Positions 1 through 51,288 of a stretch of 64,000 nucleotides of DNA are shown here, piece by piece. The number at the start of each line of letters is the position of its first letter. Position 1 is the first letter of the stretch. Source of the stretch: Protonemura montana (taxonomy: Eukaryota; Arthropoda; Insecta; Plecoptera; Nemouridae); the NCBI GenBank assembly GCA_947568835.1, contig OX387609.1:14501708-14565707 (forward strand). The letters are read 5' to 3'. Both the position numbers and the translations under genes were made by a program. The notes under the pieces are model-generated. The model searched no databases, was not told where the DNA came from, and saw only the letters and a list, made by a program, of their open reading frames with translations.

Positions 1-139
1 ACCCAGCTGTACACATCCATGCTTGCACCATGCCCTATACCTTGACACACATGTCCCTGGCTCCCATTGAAGATGCCAACCCAGCTGTACACATCCATGC
101 TTGCACCATGCCCTATACCTTGACACACATGTCCCTGGC
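1..139. repeat. 78-bp tandem repeat, two copies, cut by window edge
   Basis: Positions 1-61 and 79-139 are the same sequence with period 78. The array enters from the left edge and stops 14 bp inside the intron after exon 8. Total copy number is unknown. Confidence 0.9.
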
Positions 140-153
140 GTTCATAGACTCAC

Positions 154-306: not shown

Positions 307-3300
307 CTGCAACGCAGAGGCGACGGATGTTGAAGGTCTGTAACATTGCGATGGCTGGTTGTGTGAATGTGTATGATGCATTGATGATTTGAAAAAATTT
401 GATCACACTAAAATCAAAGAAAAAATATTGGCATTGCCATCGGTGTTTTTAGTGTTCCTAGACGTGGGTTTGAAATATTTATGATGTGTTCTAAGATTAT
501 GTAAATTAACTCCTAATCTTAGGTTGTAATGAAAACTAGAATGGGTCACGGTCAGTTGTGAAATTCGTCAGTCTAGGGGAAACACAGGGTTGCCCAAATA
601 GTGGCTGACATTTGTTGGAATAATTCTGTCGGCTCTTCAACTTGCAAGTCGTCGAAAATCCACCAAAATGGTGTCTTTGGGAATTTCTGTGTGAATGATG
701 GCCAGTGGGCAGTTGGGACATTGGTTGAGATGGGATTTTCTGGGCTTTTGGTCGCTCACCCTTAGCCCGTCGCTGACTGGTGGGAAGACGAAGTCTGTAG
801 GAGTCAGCAGGATCTTGTACGGTCCCTTGGACATTCGCTTCTGCATGATTTGTCTCCTGAGGAACAACAAGGACTCTTGTACCTGGAGGAAACAGTCGGT
901 AAGACTCGCTGGAAGGCTCTTAGATCATATTTAAAGCGAAGAAACGTTCTTATTCTGTCCTACTTTAGCATCGAAAATTTAAACTCACTCTAAACACATT
1001 TCACAGGGAATATTTTACATATTTTACTGCCAGGCAAAACAATGCGATGAAAGTAAGGATAAAAACACATTTTTCGAGAGAAAAAAACTTTTCTCCTCAT
1101 TAACGGGGGTAATGATCTAGGATCAAGGGTGATGATGACTCAACCAGCTAGCACATGGAGGGTGATGATGACTCAACTGGCTAGCACATGGAGGGTGATG
1201 ATGACTCAACCAGCTAGCACATGGAGGGTGATGATGACTCAACCAGCTAGCACATGGCGGGTGATGATGACTCAACCAGCTAGCACATGGAGGGTGATGA
1301 TGACTCAACTGGCTAGCACATGGAGGGTGATGATGACTCAACTGGCTAGCACATGGAGGGTGATGATGATTCAACCAGCTAGCACATGGAGGGTGATGAT
1401 GACTCAACTGGCTAGCACATGGAGGGTGATGATGACTCAACTGGCTAGCACATGGAGGGTGATGATGACTCAACTGGCTAGCACATGGAGGGTGATGATG
1501 ACTCAACCAGCTAGCACATGGAGGGTGATGATGACTCAACTGGCTAGCACATGGAGGGTGATGATGACTCAACTGGCTAGCACATGGAGGGTGATGATGA
1601 CTCAACTAGCTAGCACATGGAGGGTGATGATGACTCAACCAGCTAGCACATGGAGGGTGATGATGACTCAACCAGCTAGCACATGGAGGGTGATGATGAC
1701 TCAACTAGCTAGCACATGGAGGGTGATGATGACTCAACCAGCTAGCACATGGACGGTGATGATGACTCAACCAGCTAGCACATGGAGGGTGATGATGACT
1801 CAACCAGCTAGCACATGGAGGGTGATGATGACTCAACCAGCTAGCACATGGAGGGTGATGATGACTCAACCAGCTAGCACATGGAGGGTGATGATGACTC
1901 AACCAGCTAGCACATGGAGGGTGATGATGACTCAACCAGCTAGCACATGGAGGGTGATGATGACTCAACCAGCTAGCACATGGAGGGTGATGATGACTCA
2001 ACCAGCTAGCACATGGAGGGTGAGGATGACTCAACTGGCTAGCACATGGAGGGTGATGATGACTCAACTGGCTAGCACATGGAGGGTGATGATGATTCAA
2101 CTGGCTAGCACATGGAGGGTGATGATGACTCAACTGGCTAGCACATGGAGGGTGATGATGATGACTCACCTCGCCAGCATTCCAAGGGCGATGATGCTTC
2201 CCGCGACGACCGCCGAACAAATGACGATCGTCGCTATTTGTGCACTTTTAGTGAGCGCTTCTGAAGAATCTGTAAAAACAATTGTAGACTCGAGTCATTG
2301 GATCAAAAAACATTTCGGAGAAAAGTATATAAAAACAAAGCAGTATTTTCAGTAAACTTCAGCCAACTGGATAGTTCCTTGTGGCGCTGGACAATGTTAA
2401 GTGAATCGATTGTTGATTGGTGGAGGAGCCGAGTTTGTATTGCGGGTTGCGTTCAGGGGTTTCAAACTTGAGAGTGGTAGAACAACAGGTGTAATCAAGG
2501 CGTGGGTGGAGAGAGGGGTGGGGGGGGGGCTTCAGTCATGTGAATTTAAATTATGTAGTGACACAAAAAAAAAATTGAAAATCAACGAGACCCTTGCCAG
2601 AGTTCTTTTTGGCTCAAGAAATCTTTAGATTTCTTTTAAAGGCTAACGCTGTCGAAAGCATAGGATAAAGTCAGCGAGCCAACGTTAATGTTAAACGTTC
2701 CACTGAGCCAACGAGACCGGCAACACGTGGTAACGGTAAGTGCCACCCGATTGCGCTTGCGACCGTATTTTTTTTTAACAAATCTTTGTTTCAAAGAAAT
2801 AATGACAACTCGTAATATCGAAAAATGTTTTTAAATTATATAATTTGGCATCAATAATTAATTGAGCGTAAACCAGTCTCAAAAGCGAGAAAGAACGAAG
2901 GGAAATTGCTCAACACTCGACACGACGGTGGCTCCACCTGGCGGCGTCCTTTATTTTGTGCAGTTATCATTTAGCTGCCATTTTTCACGAAGATAGTGTA
3001 ACATTAGTGCTATGCCAGTACAATATTAGTGCATTTAATGTAAAACTGTCATGAAAGCATATCACAAAACAGCTGTCCCTTGCAACAAACTTCCCTCACC
3101 TGTCACCAGAGTATCACAGTCGTCGCCTTCGCATTCCTCCACGAACAGCTGATTGTCCCCGCGCCCTCTCCGCCTGCCCCTCGCCCACTGAGAAACAGGC
3201 CCCGCCCCCGCCACGTCAGTCACCACGAACCCTTCCCGCACTGCCCCGCCCACTTCCCGCCCCTCCACTCTCAAGACACGCCTCCACGAGGCCACAGACT

Positions 3301-6300
3301 CCGCCCCCACACAGTCAAAGAGCACGAACTTAACGCCTCCAGAGACACGAGTCTCGTTCGAGAAAGTTTGGTTTTGTTTCGATTCACCGCTGAGTGTCAT
3401 ATTTTGATTGGTTTTTATTGCGTTTAGCGCTCTTCTGAGTTGTCTGGCGACGGCGTGGGTTGGCTCGACGTCGTCCAGATCGGCTTCGGAGGCGGCGAGG
3501 ACCAGGAGGTTGTCGGCGAGGTTGAGGGTATCTGTTGGGAGGACGCCGTCGAAGAAAGTGCGCTCGAAGAGGCTAGGGGGGTACTGTACGGACGGCGATG
3601 TTGAGTTTGGCGGAGACCTGTGGAAGGAAAACGAATTTGGTGGTATTGTTTGTTGAAATTAGCTGGAAAATGGGTCTTAATATGTCTTAATAGTTTAGGT
3701 TAGGTTGAAAAAAATGCGACTTTTTTTTATGTTTGAAGAACAAACAAACTATAACTGGCGGATAATCTTTGAGGAAAATAATTTGAAAATAAGTTTCAAT
3801 TGAGACAAATAGCGTATCAGTAAAAGGTTTTATAGAAAAACCATTCTCAAGTTTGTCTTTACAAGTTTTCTTTGTCGGTTAGCCTTTAGAAAATTCCCAG
3901 AAAATCTTATTACAAGACAACGGTAGCTCACCCCGACGCTTTCCTGTCCTTAGGCAGCCGTCGCGACGCTGGCGACGCTGGCGTCGGCGCAAGGTGCAGC
4001 GCCAGTAGCGCCGTGGCAGGCAGCTGTAAAGCGGCCAACGCGCGAATCACGCTCAGCGTGACGGCAGCGCCCAGAGGAAGGCACAACACGAGCACTGGCC
4101 AACGCAAAAAAAATTAACTTGCTGTGAAATGTGATTTAAATCGCAAAACACTTGCAATGCGCGAAGCATTTTATTATTATGGAACACTATTAACCTCTCA
4201 GAAATTTCTCTCCCCGAAAATTTTCACAACCTCTTGGTTCTACTCCTTGGAGATCCGTTATTCTCATCAAATACACTAAAATCATCTCAAAAAATTGATA
4301 TTTCCATGTAGCTCAATTGGTTAGAGCTACAACAGGTGGAAAATGGGACGTGTCCCCGTTTGGGCGTACATTTTTTGAGAGGTTATCAGTGTTCCTAATA
4401 ATAAAATAAATTCAAACAATTTATTAGTTAGGAAAACATTGAATCAATTGTGGAAGATCAGCAGGAAGCTTGAATTCAGTTTTTTTTAGAGCAAAACTTA
4501 CTAATTCCGATTTTATCGTTATCTTCAACATGAGCTTCTGTTGTTTTATGCGACACAGGTTTTATTTCCTCATCTTAATGTAAAGCATTTTGTTGGGTTA
4601 TTTGTGATATTAAATGTGGAAACTATTTTGTATTTCAAAATATTGCAATGCCACAGGAAATACTTAACAGCTGTCTTCATCAACCCTGAACTAATTACTC
4701 TAGTCTGCCATTGTTTGGTGTTAAGTGTACCTGAAATATTTACATAACTGTAACTACTTTTAGAAGTCCCAATAATAAAACTAGTGTTTTTTTAATATTT
4801 AACAAAACTTCCAAATAAATACAAATACGTTGATATTGGCTTACAATTATTCATATTAGACAAAGTAATCAATATATTAAATATCAAGTTAAATCAGTAT
4901 CATGGTACCAATACTAAAAATACTATTTTAATAGAAAATAATCCTATACAAATTTAACATACGAAAATGTGGGGTGCAAAGAAGTAACGCTAACGCTACT
5001 CGTTGAACCTACCCCTAGCGGGCGTCACTTGAAGCGCTTGCAGTAGCTGGCCAGCCGAGTCGATCGAGAAAGTGACTGCGTTTACCGACATGTGATGTCT
5101 CACCATCACCCCTCGCCGCCGCAGCTGCACGTCGACAGAATGCGCTAGCATCGGCCAGAAACCGACGTCTGAAAATTGAACAAATATTTACTTGTGCGTT
5201 ATAGAACATAAATCGGAACACGCGAAGGAAAACTGACAACAAAACATGTGGGTAAAGACCATAAGGAGATAGCAAACTTTCAGATGCATAGAAATCAATA
5301 TTTACAAGTTAATGCCCTTTAAAACTCGTGTCGAAACTGCAAAAGAGCAAGACAGTAAAAGACTCCATTAAAAGCAAAAAAAGCACCAAAATATTATTTT
5401 GCATTTTTTAATAGTAATCCCACGCCTTACTAACCAGAAGTGTAACAATGCATTTTACTAGATTTTTAAAAGGCTCTATGCTTTTTCTAAAATAGGGGAA
5501 AAATGTCAAAAATTGATCTTTTAGTGGATTCCGCGACTCACGATTGTCAGATTTGATTCTAAATCGAACACAAAGACAATTTTAGTAAATGTTGGATGAC
5601 CGAACAGTTTGGCGTGTTGGAATCACCGGTCCTCATGAGATCACCAAAGTTAAGCAACACTGCGCTGGGTCAGGTATTGGATGGGTGACCACCGAACGGT
5701 TTGGCGTGTTGGAAACACCGGTCCTCGTGAGATCACTAAAGTTAAGTAACACTGCGCTGGGTCAGGTATTGAATGGGTGACCATCATACACATGACCAGT
5801 TCTGTTCGGGAGAGAAGTTGGAGGGATGAAAGTTAAGCAACACTGCGCTGAGCCAGGTGTTGAATGGGTGACCATCATACACATGACGAGTTCTGTTCGG
5901 GAGAGAGGTTGGAGGGATGAAAGTTAGTACAGCAACTTCATTCGGCTTGCTTATCAACCTCTCGACAGCATGGATTTGTGGAGGAATCGTGTTGTTCGCG
6001 TTGTACCGTCCTTCGGAAGGGACGTTTAGCCGGTGGTTCCCTTGGTGATCTTCGACAGGAGTAGGCTACGTGCTGGCACCGGGTTTCCCCTCCTCCCTTC
6101 ATAGGCTAGGTTAGGTTCATCATCATCCTCATCATCATCCACTCATTCACCGACGCCATTAGACCAGTGCCACATGGCCAGTTGTCAAAACAGTGCGTTG
6201 TTATACACCACAAATAAATAATAAATGTTGGATGCTGCGTACCGGCACCTGGTTCACTCTCGGCTGCCTGCCACGCCGGGCTAGATTGTCAACAACGTCA

Positions 6301-9300
6301 GCAACCAAAAGTAAGGGTCTTACCGAGAGCGAGCACAGCGGCGTTCTTCCACTTCATCCGTTCAACGACGGCGACAACAGCGCTGGAAAGGCTGCCCAAC
6401 GACGGCGGCAAATTGATGAACAACGGCGTTGGCGGCAGCTGCGGACAAGTCCACGTGACCAGGGGACGTGACGTCATTGCAGCTGCCAACGCTGCCGTCT
6501 CGCACAACGCTGGCTCGACGCTGGCGACCAGCGCTCTGGTCTCGGCGTTGGCCAGCGCTCGAAGCAGCGCGGACATTCGCGAGTGCAGTTCACCAACGCA
6601 CAAGTCTGAAAGTAAGAAGATGAGATGAGATGAAGTTGAATCATCGATTAAATCTTTAAGACCTCTCTACTTTCTTTCGACTCGGGTATTGGATGGGTGA
6701 CCACTAAATTGTTTTGCGTGTTGGTAACACCGGTCCTCGTGAGATCACAAAAGTTAAGCAACACTGCTCTGGGTCAGGTATTGGATGGGTGACCATCATA
6801 CACATGACCAGTTCTGTTCGGGAGAGAGGCTAGAGGGATGTAAGTTAAGCAACACTGCGCTGGGTCAGGTGTTAGATAGGTGACCATCATACACATGACC
6901 AGTTCTGTTCGGGAGAGAGGTTGGAGGGATGAAATTTAGTACAGCAACTTCACTCGCCTTGCTTATCAACCTCTCAACAGCATGGATTTGTGGAGGAATT
7001 CTGTTGTTCGCGTTGTACCGTCCTTCGGAAGGGATGTTAAGCCGGTGGTCCACTTGGTGCTCTTCGACAGGAGTAGGCGACGTGCCTGCACCGGGTTTCC
7101 CCTCCTCCCTTCTAGGCTAGGTTAGGTTCATCAACATCATCTACTCATTCACCGACGCCATAAGACCAGTGCCACATGGCCAGATGTCACAACAGTGCGT
7201 CGTTGAATACAAGAAATCATCACTTAATCCACTATCGATCTACGTTCGGCTGATTGTCAGTAAAATCACAGAGTGGCAATCATTTATAATAGCAACTTAA
7301 AGTTACAAAGTTGTATTTACTGGTCAAGACGGGCATTAATTCTGTCATCACGTTTACGTTGCAAGCAGTTAAATTGTAGCTATTATCCAATAGTAGAGCA
7401 CACCGATGAAACGCAGCACAATGATTGCTTGAGTTATTACGGCCAAGCTTTGGGGAAACCGAGCAAAGTTTGCCCCATTCTGATTCGTCCATATAAAACA
7501 CGATCACCGGAAGAAAATAAAGAAAACGGAGCATGAAATGTTAGGGTTTCAGACGCATTTCATCGCGTTAAGAAAAGTTGCAATAGTTTGCACTGGAGAC
7601 ATATATCCTAATGTTGAAACTGGTTCATTTGCCATGATGACATTTGATATGGGAATGTTCAACCGCTTCTTTTGATCACTTAGTCAAAACTAAAACCAAT
7701 GTTTAGCAAACCCATGTTTTACACTAAGCCTGTTTAGTGCTGCACAAGAACAAGGTTCATGATATTGAAGCAGGTGACCAGACTAGGCAGTGATATTGTA
7801 TTCCTGTCCCGTCAAAACCAAAAGAGGAACAAATCACTCGTTTGTACCTCAATACTACCGTTGAGTGTAGGTTATAGGTAGAGAAACAACGTCAATGTTA
7901 CAGTCTCTGCGTGAAAGATGGCCGCCAAATGACTACCTTACCGAAAAAAATGCAGAGTACCTGAACATCACGTTAAGTGGAGCCACTGTCGTATGAATTT
8001 TAATTTCGATATTTCTCGTAGGTTACTCGATTTTGAGACTTTTCATGCTTAAAAAAATCTCCATCAATGTTTACCTCAACGATTGATAAACACGTAACGA
8101 TATTAAAAAGCGAGTAACCTACGAGAAATATCGAAATTAAATTTCATACGACAGTGGCTCCACTTAACGTGATGTTCGGTAAGGTAGTCATTTGGCGGCC
8201 ATCTTTCACGCAGAGACTGTAACATTGACGTTGTTTCTCTACCTATAACCTACACTAAACGATACTACTAAACATTCGTCTTCCTTTCAAATCAGGACAG
8301 CATATTACAAAGCGGTCACCCCCAAGAAATCAACCCTCCCCGTCCTATTTGCTTGACAGAGACGTCCGACTCCACGTGGCCGACGCCGAAGTCGACGCCT
8401 GAGCAAGGGCGTCTGCCCTAACGACAGTAATTGACTTTGATACACGAACCCTGGCGTCCCGTTATTGAACCTTTCAGCACTTGTTGAGTGCCCCCAATTA
8501 AGTCGGCGCCCGTCACAGGGGTCGCCGTGGGGGTGGGGGACAAGAAGACTGACGACTTTGCCATCGCAGTGGTGTACCGTGGCAAGATCCCAGTGGCGCA
8601 GTGTATGGGAGGTCGTCAATATTTATTTGTGGTGTTTCGCGACGCACTGTTGTGACATCTGGCCATGCAGCACTGGTCTAATGGCGTCGGTGAATGAGTG
8701 GATGATGATGAGGATGATGATGAACCTAACCTAGCCTAGAAGGGAGGAGGGGGAAACCTGGTGCCGGCACGTAGCCTACTCTTGTCGAAGAGCACCAAGG
8801 GGACCACCGGCTTAACATCCCTTCCGAAGGACGGTACAACTCGAACAACAGGATTCCTCCACAAATCCATGCTGTCGAGAGGTTGATAAGCAAGGCGAGT
8901 GAAGCTGCTGTACTGACTTTCATCTCTCCAACCTCTCTCCCGAACAGAACTGGTCATGTGTATGATGGTCACCCATCTAATACCTGACCCACGCAGTGTT
9001 GCTCAACTTTCATCCCTCTAACCTCTCTCCTGAACAGAACTGGTCATGTGTTTGATGGTCACCCATCCAATACCTGACCCAGCGCAGTGTTGCCTAACTT
9101 CGGTGATCTCACGAGGACCGGTGTTTCCAACACGCCAAACCGTTCGGTGGATCGTCAATACTGGAGACGCTTGTATGCGCGCGCAATGTATTTAGACATG
9201 TTTCCAAAGCGCATCCAACGTCAAATTGTAGTTACTCGAGATTGACAGGTTGTGACGTGGTATAGCGTCACTAGAATCAGAGTGACTGTGAGTATTCACA

Positions 9301-12300
9301 GCCTCTTGGTTCTACTCCTTAGAGATCCGTCATTCTCATCAAATACACTGAAATCCTCTCAAAAATTATCTGTCTAAGTAGCTCAATTGGTTAGAGCAAC
9401 ACCCGGGACAGGTGGAGTTCGAGGTTCGAGTCCCCGATTGGGCATCAATATTTTAAAGGTAATTAGGTTTCCTGATAATAATAAACGTGATCTCTGTCAT
9501 GTCCTATTTCTCTCTCCCACCAACTCCCAGATTATCGTGGCCATGTGACATGACTTTAGTGCTAACACAGATCGGGATCGATCGGGAATACCCGGCAGAC
9601 TTCGGCCAGCACAGATTACCGAGCGGAGAGCGGCACTGCTTAGCGCTCACTGATGCAAGGCCGGCAAAGCCTCTCGGATCAAAGCTATGTTGACGTCACA
9701 AGGCTCAAAGGGTGGATGGATAGTGAGAGGAAATGGAGTTTGGAAGTAAATTTGAAAGGAAAAGTTGAAAAAATCTGACTTTCATGAACATTTTGTAAAA
9801 AGGGAGAAAGTAAACTGACTTTTTTGGCTGCAGTTCAAACGTCCCCCGTGAAAATAGCTGGGTCAGATATTGGATGGGTGACCACCGAACGGTTTGGCGT
9901 GTTGGAAACACCGGTCCTCGTTAGATCACCGAAGTTAAGCAACACTGCGCTGAGTCAGGTATTGGATGGGTGACCACCGAACGGTTTGGCGTGTAAGACT
10001 GGCGTGTTCTTCACTAAAACAAAACGAGTTACATTCCTTGTATTGAATTGAAGCGTTCACTACGCTGAATTCCGAAACAAAATTTCGAGTTCGGTCGACC
10101 ACGCAACATACGTGATACGTGATCCACGATTTCAACAAAGCTTTGAAACCCCGAAGCTAGACTTTTCACAACGCGCTCCACAACAGACTGTCAAACGTTG
10201 GAAAACTCGGAAAACTCGGGAAAATTCGATTGACGAGAGCGACGTTCACATTGTGCTCGCTCACTGCACATCGAAGCTTAAAATCTCCGCTTTCCTGGGC
10301 ACTTTTCTCTCGAGAGACAGACTTTTCCGTCGCTTGCCGCGTCTCAATTTCTCAAAGTGGATGACGTCATGTAAATCGAGAGAAAAGCGTTGGCGCGTTG
10401 GCCAGTGACGTGAAACAACAGGTTGCAACGCAGAAGAATTGTCTCAAGTCTGGCAGGGAGCCGAGGATTAACCCGGTGCCGGCATGCAACCTGCTCCTGT
10501 CCAACAGCACCAAGGACCAGCCACCGCTTAGTCTTGTCTCTTTGACACACTGTGTTGGCTGCTCCTGTCCAACAGCACCAAGGACCGGCCACCGCTTAGT
10601 CTTGTCACTTTGACACACTGTGTTGGCTGCTCCTGTCCAACAGCACCAAGGACCGGCCACCGCTTAGCCTTGTCACTTTGACACACTGTGTTGGCTGCTT
10701 CTGTCCAACAGCACCAAGAACCGGCCACCGCTTAGCCTTGTCACTTTGACACACTGTGTTGGCTGCTCCTATCCAACAGCACCAAGAACCGGCCACCGCT
10801 TAGCCTTGTCACTTTGACACACTGTGTTGGCTGCTCCTGTCCAACAGCACCAAGGTTCAGCCACCGCTTAGCCTTGTCACTTTGACACACTGTGTTGGCT
10901 GCTCCTGTCCAACAGCACCAAGGACCAGCCACCGCTTAGCCTTGTCACTTTGACACACTGTGTTGGCTGCTCCTGTCCAACAGCACCAAGGACCGGCCAC
11001 CGCTTAGCCTTGTCGCTTTGACACACTGTGTTGGATGCTCCTGTCCAACAGCACCAAGGACCGGCCACCGCTTAGCCTTGTCACTTTGACACACTGTGTT
11101 GGCTGCTCCTGTCCAACAGCACCAAGGACCGGCCACCGCTTAGCCTTGTCGCTTTGACACACTGTGTTGGCTGCTCCTGTCCAACAGCACCAAGGACCAG
11201 CCACCGCTTAGCCTTGTCACTTTGACACACTGTGTTGGCTGCTCCTGTCCAACAGCACCAAGGACCGGCCACCGCTTAGCCTTGTCGCTTTGACACACTG
11301 TGTTGGCTGCTCCTGTCCAACAGCACCGAGGACCGGCCACCGCTTAGCCTTGTCACTTTGACACACTGTGTTGGCTGCTCCTGTTCAACAGCACCAAGGA
11401 CCGGCCACCGCTTAGCCTTGTCCCTTTGACACACTGTGTTGGCTGCTCCTGTCCAACAGCACCAAGGCCCGGTTACCGCTTAGCCTTGTCACTTTGGCAC
11501 GCTGTGTTGGCTGCTCCTGTCCAACAGCACCAAGGACTGGCCACCGCTTAGCCTTGTCACTTTGACACACTGTGTTGGCTGCTCCTGTCCAACAGCACCA
11601 AGGACCGGCCACCGCTTAGCCTTGTCACTTTGACACACTGTGTTGGCTGCTCCTGTCCAACAGCACCAAGGACCGGCCACCGCTTAGCCTTGTCTCTTTG
11701 ACACACTGTGTTGGCTGCTCCTGTCCAACAGCACCAAGGACCGGCCACCGCTTAGCCTTGTCTCTTTGACACACTGTGGTTTTCTTCTTGGTGGCTGTAA
11801 GTGAATGGCAGGCTTATGATGAAGCTAACCCGGCCTGGCAGGGAGCTAACGGTGAATCCGGCATCTTTTTCCTGCTCTTAGGTAGTTCAAAGTTCAAATC
11901 GAGGACATCTATTTCGAAAAGCACGATGTTATATTTCCGAAAGTTTTAGTTTTAATTTTGAATAATGAGTCACTTCGCACCCAGATAGCGTACTCGTGGC
12001 CGGCTTCAGTTTTACCAACTTTGCTCGCTGATGAAACTGATTAAAACTGACTTAGCCAGCTAATTACTTAAACTTAGGTCCTCGGAGAACCAAAGGGCAA
12101 GCGACTAAAAACACTCTCATGCCCGGAACCGGGTAGTGCGCAAAAATATCCCTTAAGTACGTGAAAATCGAGTGATTTCGTATGCACAAAAAGAAAGGAT
12201 TACTTGGGTGAATGTCAAAGGGCGGCTGGAACAAAGGGGTGCGACGAAGATCCAAAGTGGTGGTAGTTCGGCGCGAAGAGAGAGAAGCGACGCTGTGAAA

Positions 12301-14772: not shown

Positions 14773-15455
14773 TTGTGGTGTTTAGCGATGTACTGTTTTG
14801 ACATCTGGCCATGCGGCACTGGTCTAATGGCGTCGGTGAATGAGTGGATGATTATGATTATGATGATGAACCTAACCTAGCCTAGAATGGAAAAGGGGAA
14901 ACCCGGTGTCGGTACATAGCCTACTCCTGTCGAAGACCAAGGGGACCACCGGCTTAACGTCCCTTCTGAAGGACGGCACAACGCGAACAACAGGATTCCT
15001 CCACAAATCCATGCTGTCGAGAGGTTGATAAGCAAGGCGAGTGAGGTTGCTGTACTAACTTACATCCCTCCAACTACTCTCCCGAACAGAACTGGTCATA
15101 TGTATGATGGTCACCCATCCAATACCTCACCCAGCGCAGTGTTGCTTAACTTTCATCCCTCCAACCTCTCTCCCGAACAGAACTGGTCATATGTATGATG
15201 GTCACCCATCCAATATCTGACTCAGCGCAGTGTTGCTTAACTTTCATCTCTCCAACCTCTCTACCGAACAGAACTGGTCATGTGTATGATGGTCACCCAT
15301 CCAATACCTGACTCAGCGCAGTGTTGCTTAACTTTCATCTCTCCAACCTCTCTCCCGAACAGAACTGGTCATGTGTATGATGGTCACCGATCCAATATCT
15401 AAGTGTTTTCGCTGATCCTATAAGAACCGGTGTTTCCAGCACGACAAACCGTTCA
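14773..15455 (-). mobile_element. 5S-derived SINE, long copy
   Basis: Reading leftward: a decayed 5S monomer (CCGGTGTTTCCAGCACGAC at 15428 on plus), four 91-bp-type units, the body (CGAAGACCAAGGGGACCACC on plus), and a tail at ATTTGTGGTGTTTAGCGATG. The GATT-rich left flank hides any target-site duplication. Confidence 0.82.
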
Positions 15456-23366: not shown

Positions 23367-24443
23367 AAGCCACGATGTTACGTCACGTCTCTCGGTGAAA
23401 ACTTTCGCAGTAGACTAGCAAACAAAATCTCTGGAAAAAAACACAATCTGTGGCGTGCGGGCGTAGTTGGGCACACGGACAAATCACGGCTCTAAAAAAT
23501 GTGTAAATGCATTGAAACGTTGATAAGAAAATGAGACAAATTGTGTGAAAACGTGATTTTTTTTTAGCTTTGCACATCTGTAAACTCAACGGGAGCGAAA
23601 TCTAAACAAATTAAAATTGGTATCAAATTAGTTTTGATTATTAGTGGAGCTAATCATGTGTTTCCTAAATATTTCAGGTGACAATCGGCATCAACCAATC
23701 ATATCAGAGCGCAAAGTAAGCTAGAAATCCGTACAAATCGAAATTTCCCTTTCATTGATTTATTATGTGAGTAAATCTACGAATATTATTATAATCTAAC
23801 AACAAGGAGGTCACCGGCAACAGGAAGGTCCGGGAATCAAACCCCGATTCGGCTGCAAATTTTTCCAGCTTTGCTCAACTTCCAGTATCAATCTTTTACT
23901 AACTTTCTTGACCAATGTCATCGCTGGCTTCCTTTGCGAGTCGATCCTACGGCATTGCCTTTAAATTGCAATGATAGTGGGTCACGTAGGTTATCCCACC
24001 TACTTAACAGATACAAGAAATATAAAAAATATGTTTAATTGGTTGGGCAAACTCGATTTACACGATGGTTGGTAAGGACCATAGTTGCTAAATATATGGG
24101 CCAGTACAGCTGGCATTGGAAGGAAATAAGGTCTTTACCAGCCTTGCCATTAAATCAAGGGAACTCAGACTGACCCGCAAGCCACTACAGCCCTTGGAAA
24201 GCTTTTTGCACTGAAAACTTTTACAGCGATGAAACGACTCTGCCCAGCAACACAAAGACTTTAATCACCGACCACCCAACACTATCAATGTAACCTCTCC
24301 ATCCCCACCCTCACTCACCGCCAATGTCAGGGCGGAGTTTGCAGAACCAAAATCAAACAAACGAGCAGACACCGAACTTGAAGAACAACCTAGACGTCAG
24401 GCGTCGGATGGCGAGCATCTTTACCCCGGCACAGAAAGTGCAA
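23367..24443. other. No element recognised
   Basis: About 1.1 kb of single-copy looking sequence without ORFs of interest, ending at the first unit of the 70-bp array. Confidence 0.4.
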
Positions 24444-26488
24444 AGTAGAGGACACTCGCCGTCGCCTCTGTGCTGGACATTCCGTGACAGGGTGCTTGAT
24501 TCGCTCCACGCAAAGGAGCGGACACTCACCGTCGCCTCTGTGCTAGACATTCCGTGACAGGGCGCTTGTTTCGCTCCACGCAAAGGAGCGGACACTCACC
24601 GTCGCCTCTGTGCTAGACATTCCGTGACAGGGCGCTTGTTTCGCTCCACGCAAAGGAGCGGACACTCGCCGTCGCCTCTGTGCTGGACATTCCGTGACAG
24701 GGTGCTTGTTTCGCTCCACGCAAAGGAGCGGACACTCGCCGTCGCCTCTGTGCTGGACATTCCGTGACAGGACGCTTGTTTCGCTCCACGCAAAGGAGCG
24801 GACACTTGCCGTCGCCTCTGTGCTGGACATTCCGTGACAGGGCGCTTGTTTTACTCCACGCAAAGGAGCGGACACTCGCCGTCGCCTCTGTGCTGGACAT
24901 TCCGTGACAGGGTGCTTGTTTCGCTCCACGCAAAGGAGCGGACACTCGCCGTCGCCTCTGTGCTGGACATTCAGTGACAGGATGCTTGTTTCGCTCCACG
25001 CAAAGGAGCGGACACTCGCCGTCGCCGCTGTGCTGGACATGCCATGCCAGGGCGCTTATTTCGCTCCACGCAAAGGAGCGGACACTCGCCGTCGCCTCTG
25101 TGCTGGACATTCCATGACAGGGTGCTTGTTTCGTTCCACGCAAAGGAGCGGACACTCGCCGTCGCCTCTGTGCTGGACATTCCGTGACAGGGCGCTTGTT
25201 TTACTCCACGCAAAGGAGCGGACACTCGCCGTCGCCTCTGTGCTGGACATTCCGTGACAGGGTGCTTGTTTCGCTCCACGCAAAGGAGCGGACACTCGCC
25301 GTCGCCTCTGTGCTGGACATTCAGTGACAGGATGCTTGTTTCGCTCCACGCAAAGGAGCGGACACTCGCCGTCGCCGCTGTGCTGGACATACCATGTCAG
25401 GGCGCTTATTTCGCTCCACGCAAAGGAGCGGACACTCGCCGTCGCCTCTGTGCTGGACATTCCATGACAGGGTGCTTGTTTCGTTCCACGCAAAGGAGCG
25501 GACACTCGCCGTCGCCACTGTGCTGGACATTCCGTGACAGGGTGCTTGTTTCGCTCCACGCAAAGGAGCGGACACTCGCCGTCGCCTCTGTGCTGGACAT
25601 TCCGTGACAGGGCGCTTGTTTCGCTCCATGCAAAGGAGTGGACACTCGCCGTCGCCTCTGTGCTGGACATTCCGTGACAGGGCGCTTGTTTCGCTCCACG
25701 CAAAGGAGCGGACACTCGCCGTCGCCTCTGTGCTGGACATTTCGTGACAGGGTGCTTGTTTCGCTCCACGCAAAGGAGCGGACACTTGCCGTCGCCTCTG
25801 TGCTGGACATTCCGTGACAGAGCGCTTGTTTCGCTCCACGCAAAGGAGCAGACACTCTCCGTCGCCTCTGTGCTGGACATTCCGTGACAGGGCGCTTGTT
25901 TCGCTCCATGCAAAGGAGCGGACACTCGCCGTCGCCTCTGTGCTGGACATTCCGTGACAGGGCGCTTGTTTCGCTCCACGCAAAGGAGCGGACACTCTCC
26001 GTCGCCTCTGTGCTGGACATTCCGTGACAGGGCGCTTGTTTCACTCCACACAAAGGAGCGGACACTCGCCGTCGCCTCTGTGCTGGACATTCCGTGACAG
26101 GGCGCTTGTTTCACTCCACGCAAAGAAGCGGACACTCGCCGTCGCCTCTGTGCTGGACATTCCATGACAGGGCGCTTGTTTCGCTCCACGCAAAGGAGCG
26201 GACACTCGCCGTCGCCTCAGTGCTGGACATTCCGTGACAGGGTGCTTGTTTCACTCCACGCAAAGGAGCGGACACTCGCCGTCGCCTCTGTGCTGGACAT
26301 TCCGTGACAGGGTGCTTGTTTCGCTCCACGCAAAGGAGCGGACACTCGCCGTCGCCGCTGTGCTGGACATTCCGTGACAGGGTGCTTGTTTCGCTCCACG
26401 CAAAGGAGCGGACACTTGCCGTCGCTTCTGTGCTGGACATTCCGTGACAGGGTGCTTGTTTTTTTTCTTCCACGCAAAGGAGCGGACA
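24444..26488. repeat. 70-bp minisatellite, locus 1 (about 29 copies)
   Basis: Unit GCTCCACGCAAAGGAGCGG, ACACTCGCCGTCGCCTCTGTG, CTGGACATTCCGTGACAGGG, TGCTTGTTTC. A five-unit block (25024 and 25374, marked by CGCTTATTTCGC) is duplicated 350 bp apart. The minus strand has no stop in any frame, so very long ORFs appear; with 70 not divisible by three, one frame cycles through three different peptides. Non-coding repeat. Confidence 0.96.
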
Positions 26489-27837: not shown

Positions 27838-28650
27838 TCTCAGCAACATTGCGCTGGGTCAGGTATTGGATGGGTGACCATCATACACATGACCAGTTCT
27901 GTTCGGGAGAGAGGTTGGAGAGATGAAAGTTAAGCAACACTGCGCTGAGTCAGGTATTGGATAGGTGAGCATCATACACATGTCCAGTTCTGTTCGGGAG
28001 AGAGGTTGGAGGGATGAAAGTTAAGCAACACTCCGCTGGGTCAGGTATTGGATGGGTTACCATCATACACATGACCAGTTCTATTCGGGAGAGAGGTTGG
28101 AGGGATGAAAGTTAAGCAACACTGCGCTGGGTCAGGTATTGGATGGGTGACCATCATACACATGACCAGTTCTGTTCGGGAGAGAGGTTGGAGGGATGAA
28201 AGTTAAGCAACACTACGCTGGGACAGGTATTGGATGGGTTACCATCATACACATGACCAGTTCTGTTCGGGAGAGAGGTTGGAGGGATGAAAGTTATGCA
28301 ACACTACGCTGGGACAGGTATTGGATGGGTTACCATCATACACATGACCAGTTCTGTTCGGGAGAGAGGTTGGAGGGATGAAAGTTAAGCAACACTGCGC
28401 TGGGTCAGGTATTGGATGGGTTACCATCACACACATGACCAGTTCTATTCGGGAGAGAGGTTGGAGGGATGAAAGTTAAGCAACACTACGCTGGGACAGG
28501 TATTGGATGGGTTACCATCATACACATGACCAGTTCTATTCGGGAGAGAGGTTGGAGGGATGAAAGTTAAGCAACACTGCGCTGGGTCAGGTATTGGATG
28601 GGTGACCATCATACACATGACCAGTTCTGTTCGGGAGAGAGGTTGGAGGT
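27838..28650 (+). repeat. 91-bp tandem array of 5S-core units (about 9 copies)
   Basis: Each unit joins a 44-bp piece of 5S rRNA (AAGTTAAGCAACACTGCGC, GGTATTGGATGGGTGACC) to a 47-bp linker (CATACACATGACCAGTTCTG, GGGAGAGAGGTTGGAGGGATG). No 5S head and no SINE body flank it, so the array expanded on its own. Variants ACTACGCTGGGACAGG and GGGTTACC alternate with the standard form, which suggests block duplication. Confidence 0.92.
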
Positions 28651-31739: not shown

Positions 31740-32437
31740 CAGCCTGCTCCTTTCCAACAGCACCAAGGACTGGCCACCGCTTAGCATTGTCCCTTTGACA
31801 CACTGTGTTGGCTGCTCCTGTCCAACAGCACCAAGGACCGGCCACCGCTTAGCCTTGTCACTTTGACACACTGTGTTGGCTGCTCCTGTCCAACAGCACC
31901 AAGGACCAGCCACCGCTTAGCCTTGTCACTTTGACACACTGTGTTGGCTGCTCCTGTCCAACAGCACCAAGGACCGGCCACCGCTTAGCCTTGTCACTTT
32001 GACACAATGTGTTGGCTGCTCCTGTCCAACAGCACCAAGGACCGGTCACCGCTTAGCCTTGTCCCTTTGACACACTGTGTTGGCTGCTCCTGTCCAACAG
32101 CACCAAGGACCGGCCACCGCTTAGCCTTGTCACTTTGACACACTGTGTTGGCTGCTCCCACCAAGGACCGGCCACCGCTTAGCCTTGTCCCTTTGATACA
32201 CTGTGTTGGCTACTCCTGTCCAACAGCACCAAGGACCGGCCACCGCTTAGCCTTGTCACTTTGACACACTGTGTTGGCTGCTCCTGTCCAACAGCACCAA
32301 GGACCGGCCACCGCTTAGCCTTGTCACTTTGACACACTGTGTTGGCTGCTCCTGTCCAACAGCACCAAGGACCAGCCACCGCTTAGCCTTGTCACTTTGA
32401 CACACTGTGTTGGCTGCTCCTGTCCAACAGCACCAAG
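31740..32437. repeat. 68-bp minisatellite, locus 2 (about 10 copies)
   Basis: Same unit as 10491-11779. One unit near 32155 lacks 13 bp (GCTGCTCCCACCAAGG), the only length variant noticed. Shared left flank with locus 1. Confidence 0.95.
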
Positions 32438-33450
32438 GATCTAGTGGCCTGGTCCGTGATATTAAAAATATTCACTCCCGCACGCCACTGGTCGCTTCAA
32501 TCACTGCCTACCACACGCAGAACGCGAATTGGGAGGCGAACCGATTCAGCGGGCGCCGGCAAAAGTCCCTTGTTTCCTCGATTATGAAATTAAATGTCGG
32601 CCGTCGGGTGCGTTCCACCCGCATCGGGCGCGTTCTCTATTCATAATTAACTCTCAGCGGTGAGCTCATTTTAAAATTAACCTTTTTTTTTCAACTGAAA
32701 AGTGCGGTGAATGGGATTTAAAAGTCTTTTTGTTGTAGTCGGCCTGAAGGGGGAATCGTTTCAAAGCGAGGGCCGGAAAATTAATTGATAATTTTTTTTA
32801 AACACTGGACATAAAATATATCTGCGAATGTTTCACAGCGTTATAATAAAAATACTCACATGAAACTTTAAGAAACCCTTCTTTTGGCGAATCTTTGTGT
32901 CATTAATTCCCAAGTTTAATTTAAAAATAAGAGAATCACGAACTCAGTCGCATTTTCTTGTAGATTAAAAAGCTGATTTATAATTTAAATACAAGAGATG
33001 AGCTTACCACAAAAGATTAGGTAATAAAGCTTGCAAGAAGTTTTTTCATACCACTCGGTCAAGTACTCTTCAAGGACACATGAGTCCGATTTTTCGGATT
33101 AATAAAACATGATAATTAAGCCAGTCAAATAAATTGAGAGCAATAATGAGTTATTTTTCCGAGCGTTCTCTCCGCCTGCATCCCATTCATTCCGACATTC
33201 AATCACTTCATGGGATCCCTCGGTGGGAGCACCTCGCCGCCCTCGCCTAGCGCAGGAACACGCCGAGCAGCGGGCGGAGGATAGGTCCAGGCACCGGCTC
33301 CATCGATTGAAATACTCCCCAAAACCGAGCGTCCCGTTCCCTCTTTCCCGCCCCACCAAACCCCGCACCCAACGCCGGCGACAGCCAAAAACACCAGCCC
33401 CCGGCTTCGAAACCTGCCCGCCAGCTACGTGGGTTATCTAGGTGTACCAC
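32438..33450. other. No element recognised; GC-rich edge next to the large array
   Basis: AT-rich to about 33160, then 290 bp GC-rich with many CpG (CACCTCGCCGCCCTCGCC, GCACCCAACGCCGGCGAC), CpG-island-like. An ORF runs through it from the array on minus, but its unique end shows no domain. Confidence 0.4.
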
Positions 33451-36400
33451 TGCCGTCGCCTCTGTGCAGGACATTCCGTGACAGGGTGCTTGTTTCGCTC
33501 CATGCAAAGGAGCGGACACTCGCCGTCGCCTCTGTGCAGGACATTCCGTGACAGGGTGCTTGTTTCGCTCCACGCAAAGGAGCGGACACTCGCCGTCGCC
33601 TCTGTGCAGGACATTCCGTGACAGGGTGCTTGTTTCGCTCCACGCAAAGGAGCGGACACTCGCCGTCGCCTCTGTGCAGGACATTCCGTGACAGGGTGCT
33701 TGTTTCGCTCCATGCAAAGGAGCGGACACTCGCCGTCGCCTCTGTGCTGGACATTCCGTGACAGGGTGCTTGTTTCGCTCCACGCAAAGGAGCGGACACT
33801 CGCCGTCGCCTCTGTGCAGGACATTCCGTGACAGGGTGCTTGTTTCGCTCCACGCAAAGGAGCGGACACTCGCCGTCGCCTCTGTGCAGGACATTCCGTG
33901 ACAGGGTGCTTGTTTCGCTCCATGCAAAGGAGCGGACACTCGCCGTCGCCTCTGTGCAGGACATTCCGTGACAGGGTGCTTGTTTCGCTCCACGCAAAGG
34001 AGCGGACACTCGCCGTCGCCTCTGTGCAGGACATTCCGTGACAGGGTGCTTGTTTCGCTCCACGCAAAGGAGCGGACACTCGCCGTCGCCTCTGTGCAGG
34101 ACATTCCGTGACAGGGTGCTTGTTTCGCTCCACGCAAAGGAGCGGACACTCGCCGTCGCCTCTGTGCAGGACATTCCGTGACAGGGTGCTTGTTTCGCTC
34201 CATGCAAAGGAGCGGACACTCGCCGTCGCCTCTGTGCAGGACATTCCGTGACAGGGTGCTTGTTTCGCTCCACGCAAAGGAGCGGACACTCGCCGTCGCC
34301 TCTGTGCAGGACATTCCGTGACAGGGTGCTTGTTTCGCTCCACGCAAAGGAGCGGACACTCGCCGTCGCCTCTGTGCTGGACATTCCGTGACAGGGTGCT
34401 TGTTTCGCTCCACGCAAAGGAGCGGACACTCGCCGTCGTCTCTGTGCTGGACATTCCGTGACAGGGTGCTTGTTTCACTCCATGCAAAGGAGCGGACACT
34501 CGCCGTCGCCTCTGTGCTAGACATTCCGTGACAGGGTGCTTGTTTTGCTCCACGCAAAGGAGCGGGCACTCGCCGTCGCCTCTGTGCAGGACATTCCGTG
34601 ACAGGGCGCTTGTTTCGCTCCATGCAAAGGAGTAGACACTCGCCGTCGCCTCTGTGCTGAACATTCCGTGACAGGGCGCTTGTTTCGCTCCACGCAAAGG
34701 AGCGGACACTCGCCGTCGCCTCTGTGCTGGACATTCCGTGACAGGGCGCTTGTTTCGCTCCACGCAAAGGAGCGGACACTCGCCGTCGCCTCTGTGCTGG
34801 ACATTCCATGACAGGGCGCTTGTTTCGCTCCACGCAAAGGAGCGGACACTTGCCGTCGCCTCTGTGCTGGACATTCCGTGACAGGGTGCTTGTTTCGCTC
34901 CACGCAAAGGAGCGGACACTCGCCGTCGCCTCTGTGCAGGACATTCCGTGACAGGGTGCTTGTTTCGCTCCACGCAAAGGAGCGGACACTCGCCGTCGCC
35001 TCTGTGCAGGACATTCCGTGACAGGGTGCTTGTTTCGCTCCATGCAAAGGAGCGGACACTCGCCGTCGCCTCTGTGCAGGACATTCCGTGACAGGGTGCT
35101 TGTTTCGCTCCACGCAAAGGAGCGGACACTCGCCGTCGCCTCTGTGCAGGACATTCCGTGACAGGGTGCTTGTTTCGCTCCACGCAAAGGAGCGGACACT
35201 CGCCGTCGCCTCTGTGCTGGACATTCCGTGACAGGGTGCTTGTTTCGCTCCACGCAAAGGAGCGGACACTCGCCGTCGTCTCTGTGCTGGACATTCCGTG
35301 ACAGGGTGCTTGTTTCACTCCATGCAAAGGAGCGGACACTCGCCGTCGCCTCTGTGCTAGACATTCCGTGACAGGGTGCTTGTTTTGCTCCACGCAAAGG
35401 AGCGGGCACTCGCCGTCGCCTCTGTGCAGGACATTCCGTGACAGGGCGCTTGTTTCGCTCCATGCAAAGGAGTAGACACTCGCCGTCGCCTCTGTGCTGA
35501 ACATTCCGTGACAGGGCGCTTGTTTCGCTCCACGCAAAGGAGCGGACACTCGCCGTCGCCTCTGTGCTGGACATTCCGTGACAGGGCGCTTGTTTCGCTC
35601 CACGCAAAGGAGCGGACACTCGCCGTCGCCTCTGTGCTGGACATTCCATGACAGGGCGCTTGTTTCGCTCCACGCAAAGGAGCGGACACTTGCCGTCGCC
35701 TCTGTGCTGGACATTCCGTGACAGGGTGCTTGTTTCGCTCCACGCAAAGGAGCGGACACTCGCCGTCGCCTCTGTGCTGGACATTCCGTGACAGGGTGCT
35801 TGTTTCACTCCACGCAAAGGAGCGGACACTCGCCGTCGCCTCTGTGCTGGACATTCCGTGACAGGGCGCTTGTTTCGTTCCACGCAAAGGAGAGGACACT
35901 CGCCGTTGCCTCTGTGCTGGACATTCCGTGACAGGGCGCTTGTTTCGCTCCACGCAAAGGAGAGGACACTCGCCGTCGCCTCTGTGCTGGACATTCCGTG
36001 ACAGGGCGCTTGTTTCGCTCCACGCAAAGGAGAGGACACTCGCCGTCGCCTCTGTGCTGGACATTCCGTGACAGGGTGCTTGTTCCGCTCCACGCAAAGG
36101 AGCGGACACTCGCCGTCGCCTCTGTGCTGGACATTCCGTGACAGGGCGCTTGTTTCACTCCACGCAAAGGAGCGGACACTTGCCATCGCCTCTGTGCTGG
36201 ACATTCCGTGACAGGGCGCTTGTTTCACTCCACGCAAAGGAGCGGACTCTCGCCGTCGCTTCTGTGCTGGATATTCCTTGACAGGGTGCTTGTTTCGCTG
36301 CACGCAAAGGAGCGGACACTCGCCGTCGCCTCTGTGCTGGACATTCCGTGACAGAGCGCTTGTTTCGCTCCACGCAAAGGAGCGGACACTCGCCGTTGCC

Positions 36401-39400
36401 TCTGTGCTGGACATTCCGTGACAGGGCGCTTGTTTCGCTCCACGCAAAGGAGAGGACACTCGCCGTCGCCTCTGTGCTGGACATTCCGTGACAGGGTGCT
36501 TGTTCCGCTCCACGCAAAGGAGCGGACTCTCGCCGTCGCTTCTGTGCTGGATATTCCTTGACAGGGTGCTTGTTTCGCTGCACGCAAAGGAGCGGACACT
36601 CGCCGTCGCCTCTGTGCTGGACATTCCGTGACAGGGTGCTTGTTTCGCTCCACGCAAAGGAGCGGACACTCGCCGTCGCCTCTGTGCTGGACATTCCGTG
36701 ACAGGGTGCTTGTTTCGCTCCACGCAAAGGAGCGGACACTCGCTGTCACCTCTGTGCTGGACATTCCGTGACAAGGCGCTTGTTTCACTCAACGCAAAGG
36801 AGCGGACACTGGCCGTCGCCTCTGTGCTGGACATTCTGTGACAGGGCGCTTGTTTCGCTCCACGCAAAGGAGCGGACACTCGCCGTCGCCTCTGTGCTGG
36901 ACATTCCGTGACAGGGTGCTTGTTTTGCTCCACGCAAAGGAGCGGACACTCGCCGTCGCCTCTGTTCTGGACATTCCGTGACAAGGCGCTTGTTTCACTC
37001 CACGCAAAGGAGCGGACACTCGCCGTCGCCTCTGTGCTGGACATACCGTGACAGGGTGCTTGTTTTGCTCCACGCAAAGGAGCGGACACTCGCCGTCGCC
37101 TCTGTGCTGGACATTCCGTGACAGGGTGCTTGTTTCGCTCCACGCAAAGGAGTGGACACTCGCCGTCGCCTCTGTGCTGGACATTCCGTGACAGGGCGCT
37201 TGTTTCGCTCCACGCAAAGGAGCGGACACTCGCCGTCGCCTCTGTGCTGGACATTCCGTGACAGGGTGCTTGTTCCGCTCCACGCAAAGGAGCGGACACT
37301 CGCCGTCGCCTCTGTGCTGGACATTCCGTGACAGGGCGCTTGTTTCACTCCACGCAAAGGAGCGGACACTTGCCATCGCCTCTGTGCTGGACATTCCGTG
37401 ACAGGGCGCTTGTTTCACTCCACGCAAAGGAGCGGACTCTCGCCGTCGCTTCTGTGCTGGATATTCCTTGACAGGGTGCTTGTTTCGCTGCACGCAAAGG
37501 AGCGGACACTCGCCGTCGCCTCTGTGCTGGACATTCCGTGACAGGGCGCTTGTTTCGCTCCACGCAAAGGAGCGGACACTCGCCGTCGCCTCTGTGCAGG
37601 ACATTCCGTGACAGGGGGCTTGTTTCGCTCCATGCAAAGGAGTAGACACTCGCCGTCGCCTCTGTGCTGAACATTCCGTGACAGGGCGCTTGTTTCGCTC
37701 CACGCAAAGGAGCGGACACTCGCCGTCGCCTCTGTGCTGGACATTCCGTGACAAGGCGCTTGTTTCACTCAACGCAAAGGAGCGGACACTCGCCGTCGCC
37801 TCTGTGCTGGACATTCCGTGACAAGGCGCTTGTTTCACTCAACGCAAAGGAGCGGACACTCGCCGTCGCCTCTGTGCTGGACATTCCGTGACAGGGTGCT
37901 TGTTTCGCTCCACGCAAAGGAGCGGACACTCGCTGTCACCTCTGTGCTGGACATTCCGTGACAAGGCGCTTGTTTCACTCAACGCAAAGGAGCGGACACT
38001 GGCCGTCGCCTCTGTGCTGGACATTCTGTGACAGGGCGCTTGTTTCGCTCCACGCAAAGGAGCGGACACTCGCCGTCGCCTCTGTGCTGGACATTCCGTG
38101 ACAGGGTGCTTGTTTTGCTCCACGCAAAGGAGCGGACACTCGCCGTCGCCTCTGTTCTGGACATTCCGTGACAAGGCGCTTGTTTCACTCCACGCAAAGG
38201 AGCGGACACTCGCCGTCGCCTCTGTGCTGGACATACCGTGACAGGGTGCTTGTTTTGCTCCACGCAAAGGAGCGGACACTCGCCGTCGCCTCTGTGCTGG
38301 ACATTCCGTGACAGGGTGCTTGTTTCGCTCCACGCAAAGGAGTGGACACTCGCCGTCGCCTCTGTGCTGGACATTCCGTGACAGGGCGCTTGTTTCGCTC
38401 CACGCAAAGGAGCGGACACTCGCCGTCGCCTCTGTGCTGGACATTCCGTGACAGAGCGCTTGTTTCGCTCCACGCAAAGGAGCGGACACTCGCCGTTGCC
38501 TCTGTGCTGGACATTCCGTGACAGGGCGCTTGTTTCGCTCCACGCAAAGGAGAGGACACTCGCCGTCGCCTCTGTGCTGGACATTCCGTGACAGGGTGCT
38601 TGTTTCACTCCACGCAAAGGAGCGGACACTTGCCATCGCCTCTGTGCTGGACATTCCGTGACAGGGCGCTTGTTTCACTCCACGCAAAGGAGCGGACTCT
38701 CGCCGTCGCTTCTGTGCTGGACAATTCCTTGACAGAGCGCTTGTTTCGCTCCACGCAAAGGAGCGGACACTCGCCGTTGCCTCTGTGCTGGACATTCCGT
38801 GACAGGGCGCTTGTTTCGCTCCACGCAAAGGAGAGGACACTCGCCGTCGCCTCTGTGCTGGACATTCCGTGACAGGGTGCTTGTTCCGCTCCACGCAAAG
38901 GAGCGGACACTCGCCGTCGCCTCTGTGCTGGACATTCCGTGACAGGGCGCTTGTTTCACTCCACGCAAAGGAGTGGACACTTGCCATCGCCTCTGTGCTG
39001 GACATTCCGTGACAGGGCGCTTGTTTCACTCCACGCAAAGGAGCGGACTCTCGCCGTCGCTTCTGTGCTGGATATTCCTTGACAGGGTGCTTGTTTCGCT
39101 GCACGCAAAGGAGCGGACACTCGCCGTCGCCTCTGTGCTGGACATTCCGTGACAGGGCGCTTGTTTCGCTCCACGCAAAGGAGCGGACACTCGCCGTCGC
39201 CTCTGTGCAGGACATTCCGTGACAGGGCGCTTGTTTCGCTCCATGCAAAGGAGCGGACACTCGCCGTCGCCTCTGTGCTGAACATTCCGTGACAGGGCGC
39301 TTGTTTCGCTCCACGCAAAGGAGCGGACACTCGCCGTCGCCTCTGTGCTGGACATTCCGTGACAAGGCGCTTGTTTCACTCAACGCAAAGGAGCGGACAC

Positions 39401-42400: not shown

Positions 42401-43138
42401 GAGAGGACACTCGCCGTCGCCTCTGTGCTGGACATTCCGTGACAGGGCGCTTGTTTCGCTCCACGCAAAGGAGAGGACACTCGCCGTCGCCTCTGTGCTG
42501 GACATTCCGTGACAGGGTGCTTGTTTCACTCCACGCAAAGGAGCGGACACTTGCCATCGCCTCTGTGCTGGACATTCCGTGACAGGGCGCTTGTTTCACT
42601 CCACGCAAAGGAGCGGACTCTCGCCGTCGCTTCTGTGCTGGATATTCCTTGACAGGGTGCTTGTTTCGCTGCACGCAAAGGAGCGGACACTCGCCGTCGC
42701 CTCTGTTCTGGACATTCCGTGACAAGGCGCTTGTTTCACTCCACGCAAAGGAGCGGACACTCGCCGTCGCCTCTGTGCTGGACATACCTTGACAGGGTGC
42801 TTGTTTCGCTGCACGCAAAGGAGCGGACACTCGCCGTCGCCTCTGTGCTGGACATTCCGTGACAGGGCGCTTGTTTCACTCCACGCAAAGGAGCGGACAC
42901 TTGCCATCGCCTCTGTGCTGGACATTCCGTGACAGGGCGCTTGTTTCACTCCACGCAAAGGAGCGGACTCTCGCCGTCGCCTCTGTGCTGGACATTCCGT
43001 GACAGGGCGCTTGTTTCGCTGCACGCAAAGGAGCGGACACTCGCCGTCGCCTCTGTGCTGGACATTCCGTGACAGGGCGCTTGTTTTGCTCCACGCAAAG
43101 GAGCGGACACTCGCCGTCGCCTCTGTGCTGGACATTCT
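33451..43138. repeat. 70-bp minisatellite, locus 2 (about 138 copies, 9.7 kb)
   Basis: Same unit as 24444-26488. The left 1 kb is dominated by the GTGCAGGACATTCC variant; the rest mixes variants (GCTGCACGC, GATATTCCTTGAC, CTGTTCTGG, ACATACCGTG). Higher-order duplications are visible: a 12-unit block (34090-34920 with 34930-35760), and a block repeated at about 36.8, 37.8, 39.45 and 41.69 kb with spacings of 1190, 1611 and 2240 bp. One inserted base near 38723 explains the 1611. Stop-free on minus in all frames, giving a 1,350-codon ORF that is not credible as a gene. Confidence 0.96.
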
Positions 43139-49600: not shown

Positions 49601-50570
49601 AACTAGTTGAACTGGGTTTTGAATGCTAAGTAAAGGGCAACTAAATTTCCCGACGTTTCGTTACATGTACTAGTTACTTCTTCAAGGGTTAGAGCAGTCC
49701 TTGAATTATTATTTGTGGTGTTTAACGACGCACTGTTTTTGACAACTGGTCCTGCGGCACTGGTCTAATGGCGTCGGTGAATGAGTGGATGATGATGATG
49801 AACCTAACCTAGCCAAGAAGGGAGGAGGGGAAACCCGTTGCCGGCACGTAGCCTACTCCTGTCGAAGAGCACCAAGGGGACCACCGGCTTCACGTCCCTT
49901 CCGAAGGACGGTGCTACGCGAACAACAGGATTCCTCCACAAATCCATGCTGTCGAGAGGTTGATAAGCAAGGCGAATGAAGTTGCTGTACTAACTTTCAT
50001 CCCTCCAACCTCTCTCCCGAACAGAACTGGTCATGTGTATGATGGTCACCCATCCAATACCTGACTCAGCGCAGTGTTGCTTAACTTTCATCCCTCCAAC
50101 CTCTCTCCCGAACAGAACTGGTCATGTGTATGATGATCACCCATCCAATACCTGACCCAGCGCAGTGTTGCTTAACTTTCATCCCTCCAACCTCTCTCCC
50201 GAACAGAACTGGTCATGTGTATGATGGTCACCCATCCAATACCTGACCCAGCGCAGTGTTGCTTAACTTCCAACACTCCAACCTCTCTCCCGAACAGAAC
50301 TGGTCATGTGTATAATGGTCACCCATTCAATACCTGACTCAGCGCAGTATTGCTGAACTTCGGTGATCTAACGAGAACCGGTGTTTCCAACACGCCAAAC
50401 CGTTCGGTCGCAGTCCTTGAAGAATCCTTGAAGAAGTAACTAGTATATGTTACGAAACGTCGGGAAATTTAGTAGCCCTTTACTTAGCATTCAAAACCCA
50501 GTTCAAATAGTTTTTCTTAAAACTAGTGCTAAGAATAAATTAAGTAGACATGAGTCTGAAAACCATCGTG
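49600..50570. mobile_element. Foldback element (family C), split by a 5S SINE
   Basis: The left arm (49606-49690: GTTTTGAATGCTAAGTAAAG, CCCGACGTTTCGTTACATG) is the inverse of the right arm (50422-50515). An outer arm follows to about 50570 (AAAACTAGTGCTAAGAATAA). The 5S SINE sits between the arms. Simpler copies: 50878-51040 and 17075-17165; a left arm starts each 2,849-bp unit. Confidence 0.75.
49706..50409 (-). mobile_element. Complete 5S-derived SINE with 12-bp target-site duplication
   Basis: 704 bp flanked by GCAGTCCTTGAA (49694-49705 and 50410-50421). Order from right: a 5S monomer with native linker, four 91-bp-type units, the body, and the ATTTGTGGTGTTTAACG tail on plus. Inserted at the centre of a foldback element, so it is younger than that element. 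Confidence 0.9.
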
Positions 50571-50877
50571 TCGTGGTCCCCGTGGTCTAGATTAGGTACC
50601 TGGCATGTTTCGCCGATAGCTCTATGTAAGCTGAGATATTGGCCAGGATAGCCTTGACAATTTCATCAACACCGCGCTTGGACTAACTGCTTCAATTGTT
50701 GATTGATTGCTTGATTGTTTTGTGGTTGATTTCAGAGCCGTGGTATGATTTTGAGATGTGTTTTCCGGTTTTGCTCTGCGTTGAAGAGATTTGCTGTCCT
50801 CGAAAGATTCTTGACTTTTAGACGAGGCACGGCTCGTCATCTTCAGGAAAATGATGTTGTTTCTTAAGAATAACTAT

Positions 50878-51284: not shown

Positions 51285-51288
51285 TGAT

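Follow-up and report, generated by a model that had tools for sequence, protein, structure and literature searches.

Minisatellite-like tandem duplications that extend across an exon-intron boundary, be it at the 5' splice site or at the 3' one, are described in amphioxus under the name of mirages (PMC3087553). In that description many units keep the AG/GT of the splice site, RT-PCR suggests that splicing is normal, and units at the edge of an array escape homogenisation. PGBD5 and TnC are reported as further amphioxus cases (PMC3902484), and Adh3 and the globins BflGb6 and BflGb9 are also named. Two other systems come close. Human segmental duplications are reported to contain minisatellites with units of about 30 bp at exon-intron boundaries; they vary in copy number and can create introns (PMC2812944). 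The Rogers model, as presented along with the amphioxus data, explains intron gain by the duplication of a segment carrying an AG/GT proto-splice site (PMC3087553). No mirage outside the cephalochordates was recognised among the matches listed in the openly licensed literature.

The array described here belongs to an arthropod genome, that of Protonemura montana, whereas the mirages were described in amphioxus. It was found within a window of 64,000 nucleotides, which is the whole stretch of DNA analysed and to which all simple coordinates below refer. Like the amphioxus mirages, it is an intronic tandem array located beside a splice site, and its unit combines exon and intron sequence. The dimensions are different: 31 units of 33 bp are present here, whereas the amphioxus globins have up to 6 units of 150-160 bp and the units of Adh3 measure 10-72 bp. 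The donor position is different as well, since GT is found there in many amphioxus units and in none of the Protonemura montana units. The human repeats lie in exons or have been turned into introns via cryptic sites, whereas a single exon copy is accompanied here by intronic copies. A duplicated AG/GT segment is the element in common with the Rogers model, but an existing intron would have been lengthened in the present case and no new intron created. With its splicing predicted from the reading frame, the array is by structure a mirage in the amphioxus sense. It is probably a newly found example outside amphioxus of a kind that was itself already known.

The exon borders used in this work are predictions from sequence alone. 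Predicted exon 6 (100 nt, 2170..2269, minus strand) lies just downstream of the acceptor TTTTTACAG and codes for a predicted membrane helix, IVICSAVVAGSIIALGMLA, which is the most hydrophobic stretch and gives the highest 19-residue hydropathy mean (2.49). It is followed by the predicted 5' splice site of intron 6, GAG/GTGAGT, whose hexamer occupies 2164..2169 on the minus strand with +1 at 2169. Predicted intron 6 (1,313 bp, 857..2169, minus strand) ends at the acceptor TTGTTGTTCCTCAG/G and keeps the frame. Indeed, exon 6 joined to base 856, the first base of exon 7, produces the open frame ...GMLARRQIMQKRMSKGPYKILLTPTDFVF / ...SIIALGMLARRQIMQKRMSKGPYKILLTPTDFVF.

Several domains give an indication of the nature of the host gene. 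The exon at 6298-6603 scores 26.2 bits against ANF_receptor (cut-off 25.4). Past the start of the window, within the next 20 kb, exons match PK_Tyr_Ser-Thr with 26.4, 33.2 and 23.4 bits (cut-off 23.1), and a fourth kinase-like exon reaches 19.9 bits, below that cut-off. Because of this domain order (ANF_receptor, membrane helix, kinase-like exons), a receptor guanylate cyclase-like gene is suggested, and the cyclase-domain pieces detected on the same strand some 53 kb past the last of the kinase-like exons (C12:14430651-14432945) are candidate parts of it. In the domain-family search, exons 5, 6 and 7 gave no match above cut-off. A paralogous intron was sought for comparison with the protein sequence of exons 6-7, which hit nothing but those two exons themselves at E values up to 10. 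Open frames resembling TPR repeats by eye are also seen on the minus strand among the kinase-like exons, at L024:8316-9843 and in neighbouring stretches of L025; situated between kinase-like exons of the same strand, they are perhaps a nested gene.

The 33-bp minisatellite covers 1126..2163 on the minus strand. TRF gives a period of 33, 31.4 copies and 97% matches (window 1126-2161), and 31 units can be delimited. The array represents 1,036 of the 1,313 bases of predicted intron 6 (about 79%). Its first unit comes directly after the GTGAGT donor hexamer plus one CAT; owing to this extra CAT its spacing is 36, the other 30 spacings being 33. An array of about 31 units starting at the donor itself had been reported in the first-pass annotation, and this is borne out. 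So is its claim that every unit read has T at +1 while GTGAGT is confined to the true junction: on the minus strand, the hexamer at the donor position is TTGAGT in 29 units and TTGAAT in 2, so that +1 is T in 31/31 and TT replaces GT throughout (GT in 0/31). The description of this T as the first base after AG is more restricted, since the preceding triplet is CAG in 12 units and TAG in 2 (14/31) but TGG in the other 17.

Variation among the 31 units is confined to 6 of the 33 columns. Common variants are limited to two columns (-3 and -2), and the other four vary in one or two units each. Because so few columns vary, four of them by low-frequency variants, the units are descendants of a recent common copy, and so the T that they share counts as one event. 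On the plus strand, a 430-codon open frame with VMMTQPASTWR repeats runs through window 1063-2355. Since 33 is a multiple of three, the array leaves such a frame behind, and it is probably without meaning.

The repeat unit holds sequence from both sides of the boundary, namely 27 exon bases and the donor hexamer. At the junction itself, the final 27 bases of exon 6 together with GTGAGT (2164..2196, minus strand) make up one complete though divergent boundary unit, unit 0. Compared in register, unit 0 is identical to the CAG form at 24 of 33 positions and to the majority consensus at 23; its exonic part contributes 19 of 27 (binomial P 3.3e-6) and its donor part 5 of 6. The boundary match of about 20 in 25 positions noted at first had the rate about right but was too short for the full register. 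Outside the array, on both strands of about 83 kb, the best score was 20/33 in 165,552 fixed-phase comparisons and 21/33 in 5,463,216 comparisons over all rotations. The comparison with shuffled units that had been named as a possible refutation was also run, and the highest score among 200,000 shuffled units was 20, against the 23-24 observed. Translated in the exon frame, unit 0 gives SIIALGMLAR followed by a stop and the units (V)IITLHVLAS followed by a stop; the comparison script prefixed AG to both, and the V comes from the GT that the array itself has at this place. By reading of the codons, three of the eight exonic differences between unit 0 and the units are synonymous.

These comparisons must be weighed against an origin from intron sequence alone, in which the array would merely abut the donor and its resemblance to the exon would be a product of chance and simple sequence. 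Part of the boundary match is indeed the low-complexity motif CATCATC together with a donor hexamer that any intron could share; when both are removed, 12 of 20 positions are identical (binomial P 0.002). Similarly, the result is only moderately significant when the unit is aligned locally, with gaps allowed, to 130 bases of exon followed by GTGAGT: the score of 22 is equalled or exceeded by 0.45% of 2,000 shuffles, the best of which scored 25. Intron 8 offers a further argument of this type. A 78-bp minisatellite begins there about 14 bp past the predicted exon 8 donor (+1 at window 153), occupying window 1-140 and continuing into L025:8987-10000. No homology between this array and the exon end was detected (a fraction of 0.135 of 1,000 shuffles was as good), which indicates that arrays can adjoin donors without having been copied from them. 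For the same reason, it was rejected as a second mirage. Against an intron-only origin stand the in-register score of 24/33, above the fixed-phase maximum off the array, and the fact that the unit 0 edge ranks first in in-register identity among 102 edges of 54 sampled arrays (0.70, followed by 0.58, with a median of 0.325). Such an origin is considered distinctly unlikely.

The insertion at the donor of a dispersed satellite or minisatellite family was rejected, the unit having been found at this locus only by two whole-genome searches. An exact 22-mer of the unit gave 10 matches, all inside this array, and a 168-bp query gave at least 15, all in this array and the exon. A survey of arrays covered the window, 20 kb flanking it and 20 further stretches of 10 kb each (17 on C12 and 3 on C1). 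In this small sample, not random with respect to the genome, donors were not shown to be generally overrepresented at the edges of the 54 arrays in 284 kb: two GTRAGT sites lay no more than 20 bp outside the edge of an array, where 0.77 would be expected, one being the intron 6 donor and the other standing beside a 20-bp satellite.

Other repeats were noticed in the window and beyond it. Tandem units of 91 bp recur at window 5599-6938, 8916-9100, 15056-15397, 27842-28649 and 49991-62096; they resemble the internal part of 5S rRNA and possibly stem from a 5S-derived SINE. Four arrays between 52778 and 62096 are 2,849 bp apart and have identical statistics, as in a larger tandem duplication. Some 138 copies of a 70-bp unit make up a 9.7-kb array (window 33448-43137), and 29 further copies of it form another array (24440-26488). 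Arrays of a 68-bp unit are present at four places (window 10491-11778 and 31744-32439, L025:3763-4261 and L024:6504-7415), in both orientations and also between the kinase-like exons, as a mobile minisatellite would be. In the genome as a whole TTAGG is abundant, five units of it giving 7,938 and 7,633 matches against 1 for the reversed control, and such repeats point to an arthropod. Among the first 100 places listed, many of the TTAGG runs are deep within contigs and not only at their ends, for instance C1:916562-963948 and C1:11637666-11638095.

Taken in register, the boundary match supports the view that the array grew from the exon-intron boundary, or at least shares descent with it. Growth from the donor had been suggested in the first-pass annotation; the source now appears wider, the unit taking in 27 exon bases beyond the donor. 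The interpretation favored here, with good confidence, is that of a boundary-spanning minisatellite of the mirage kind, derived through a founder copy from the end of exon 6 and its donor. The segment first copied, about 33 bp in length, would have run from CATCATC in exon 6 across the end of the exon to the donor hexamer. Its tandem duplication into the intron would most likely have been brought about by slippage or unequal exchange at short direct repeats. Such a repeat is CATCATC, found at the start of this segment and again right after GTGAGT, 33 bases apart, but the second occurrence may itself stem from the duplication. A founder copy with T at +1 and other changes would then have expanded to 31 mutually homogenised units. 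The exon copy would have stayed apart because one half of the membrane helix is encoded in it. A point against this reading is that exon and units differ at 9 of 33 positions while the units are about 97% alike among themselves; the duplication must then long predate the array as it now stands, unless the founder changed fast.

The sequence match alone carries no direction. The array could in principle be the older element, the end of the exon having been captured from it by a shift of the donor. The exon is nevertheless the more likely source, because the exonic part of unit 0 encodes half of a hydrophobic membrane helix, a part that would have been missing from the protein until such a capture. 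The distal edge of the array (1118..1137, minus strand, beginning CATCATCACCCTTGATCC...) also argues against this reverse direction: it reads CATCATCACCCTTG, with CCCTTG as in the exon, unlike the CCCTCC of the units. This would be expected if array edges keep older states, but with two bases only it is suggestive only. Capture of the exon end from the array is judged very improbable.

The splicing properties of the units can be considered next to those of true donors. A G at +1 is required for the use of a donor. The U1 duplex at the predicted intron 6 donor has an energy of -10.8 kcal/mol, the consensus reaching -12.4, and the units pair with U1 at -5.8 (CAG), -5.4 (TGG) and -4.0 kcal/mol (TAG). 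U1 pairing alone was rejected as a proof that the copies are dead, since the donor predicted for exon 8 in this gene does no better than the CAG units. Because this donor pairs equally with U1, at -5.8 kcal/mol, the decisive defect of the units is the missing G at +1. The pairing retained by all three forms, in the CAG units at a level that a donor of the same gene also displays, could be taken as the sign of a regulatory function in splicing, in which the array would provide weak U1 sites or binding sites for splicing factors. A precedent of this sort may be seen in the C. elegans minisatellite CeRep25B, reported as over-represented near alternatively spliced regions (PMC4039745). However, descent from the donor is enough to account for this pairing, with no function required, and a regulatory array is regarded as extremely doubtful. 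Most likely the array would have no effect on splicing: only the true donor, the outermost, has GT at the proper place and would be used, and the copies would be removed with the intron.

The first-pass annotation had further proposed that copies with a working GT were lost or selected against. This would mean that splicing selection purged every unit keeping or regaining the G at +1. The presence of T in all 31 units agrees with such a purge, and a working downstream copy would add a TGA in the exon's frame and hence be costly. However, the near-uniformity of the units reduces their T to one event, and about 0.04 T-to-G changes are expected at +1, by arithmetic from the four low-frequency variants. 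The absence of G at this position needs no selection: since the units are nearly identical, one founder change suffices. Loss of GT is not even required, because the amphioxus mirages keep AG/GT in many units with splicing reported as normal (PMC3087553). Purging by selection is judged unlikely, and this part of the earlier proposal is not supported; a single change in the founder copy is the better explanation.

If the mirage reading is true, mirages would be extended from amphioxus to an arthropod. With the exon source and the array both still in place, the birth of an intronic minisatellite would be readable here almost base by base. More speculatively, and with the chances clearly against it, minisatellites born at boundaries could be a general means of intron lengthening in animals and no speciality of cephalochordates, slippage between short repeats on either side of a 5' splice site copying the donor inward and a founder devoid of GT being the condition for large arrays. 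If this were true, long arrays would carry dead donors and short arrays live ones, a prediction that is testable across genomes.
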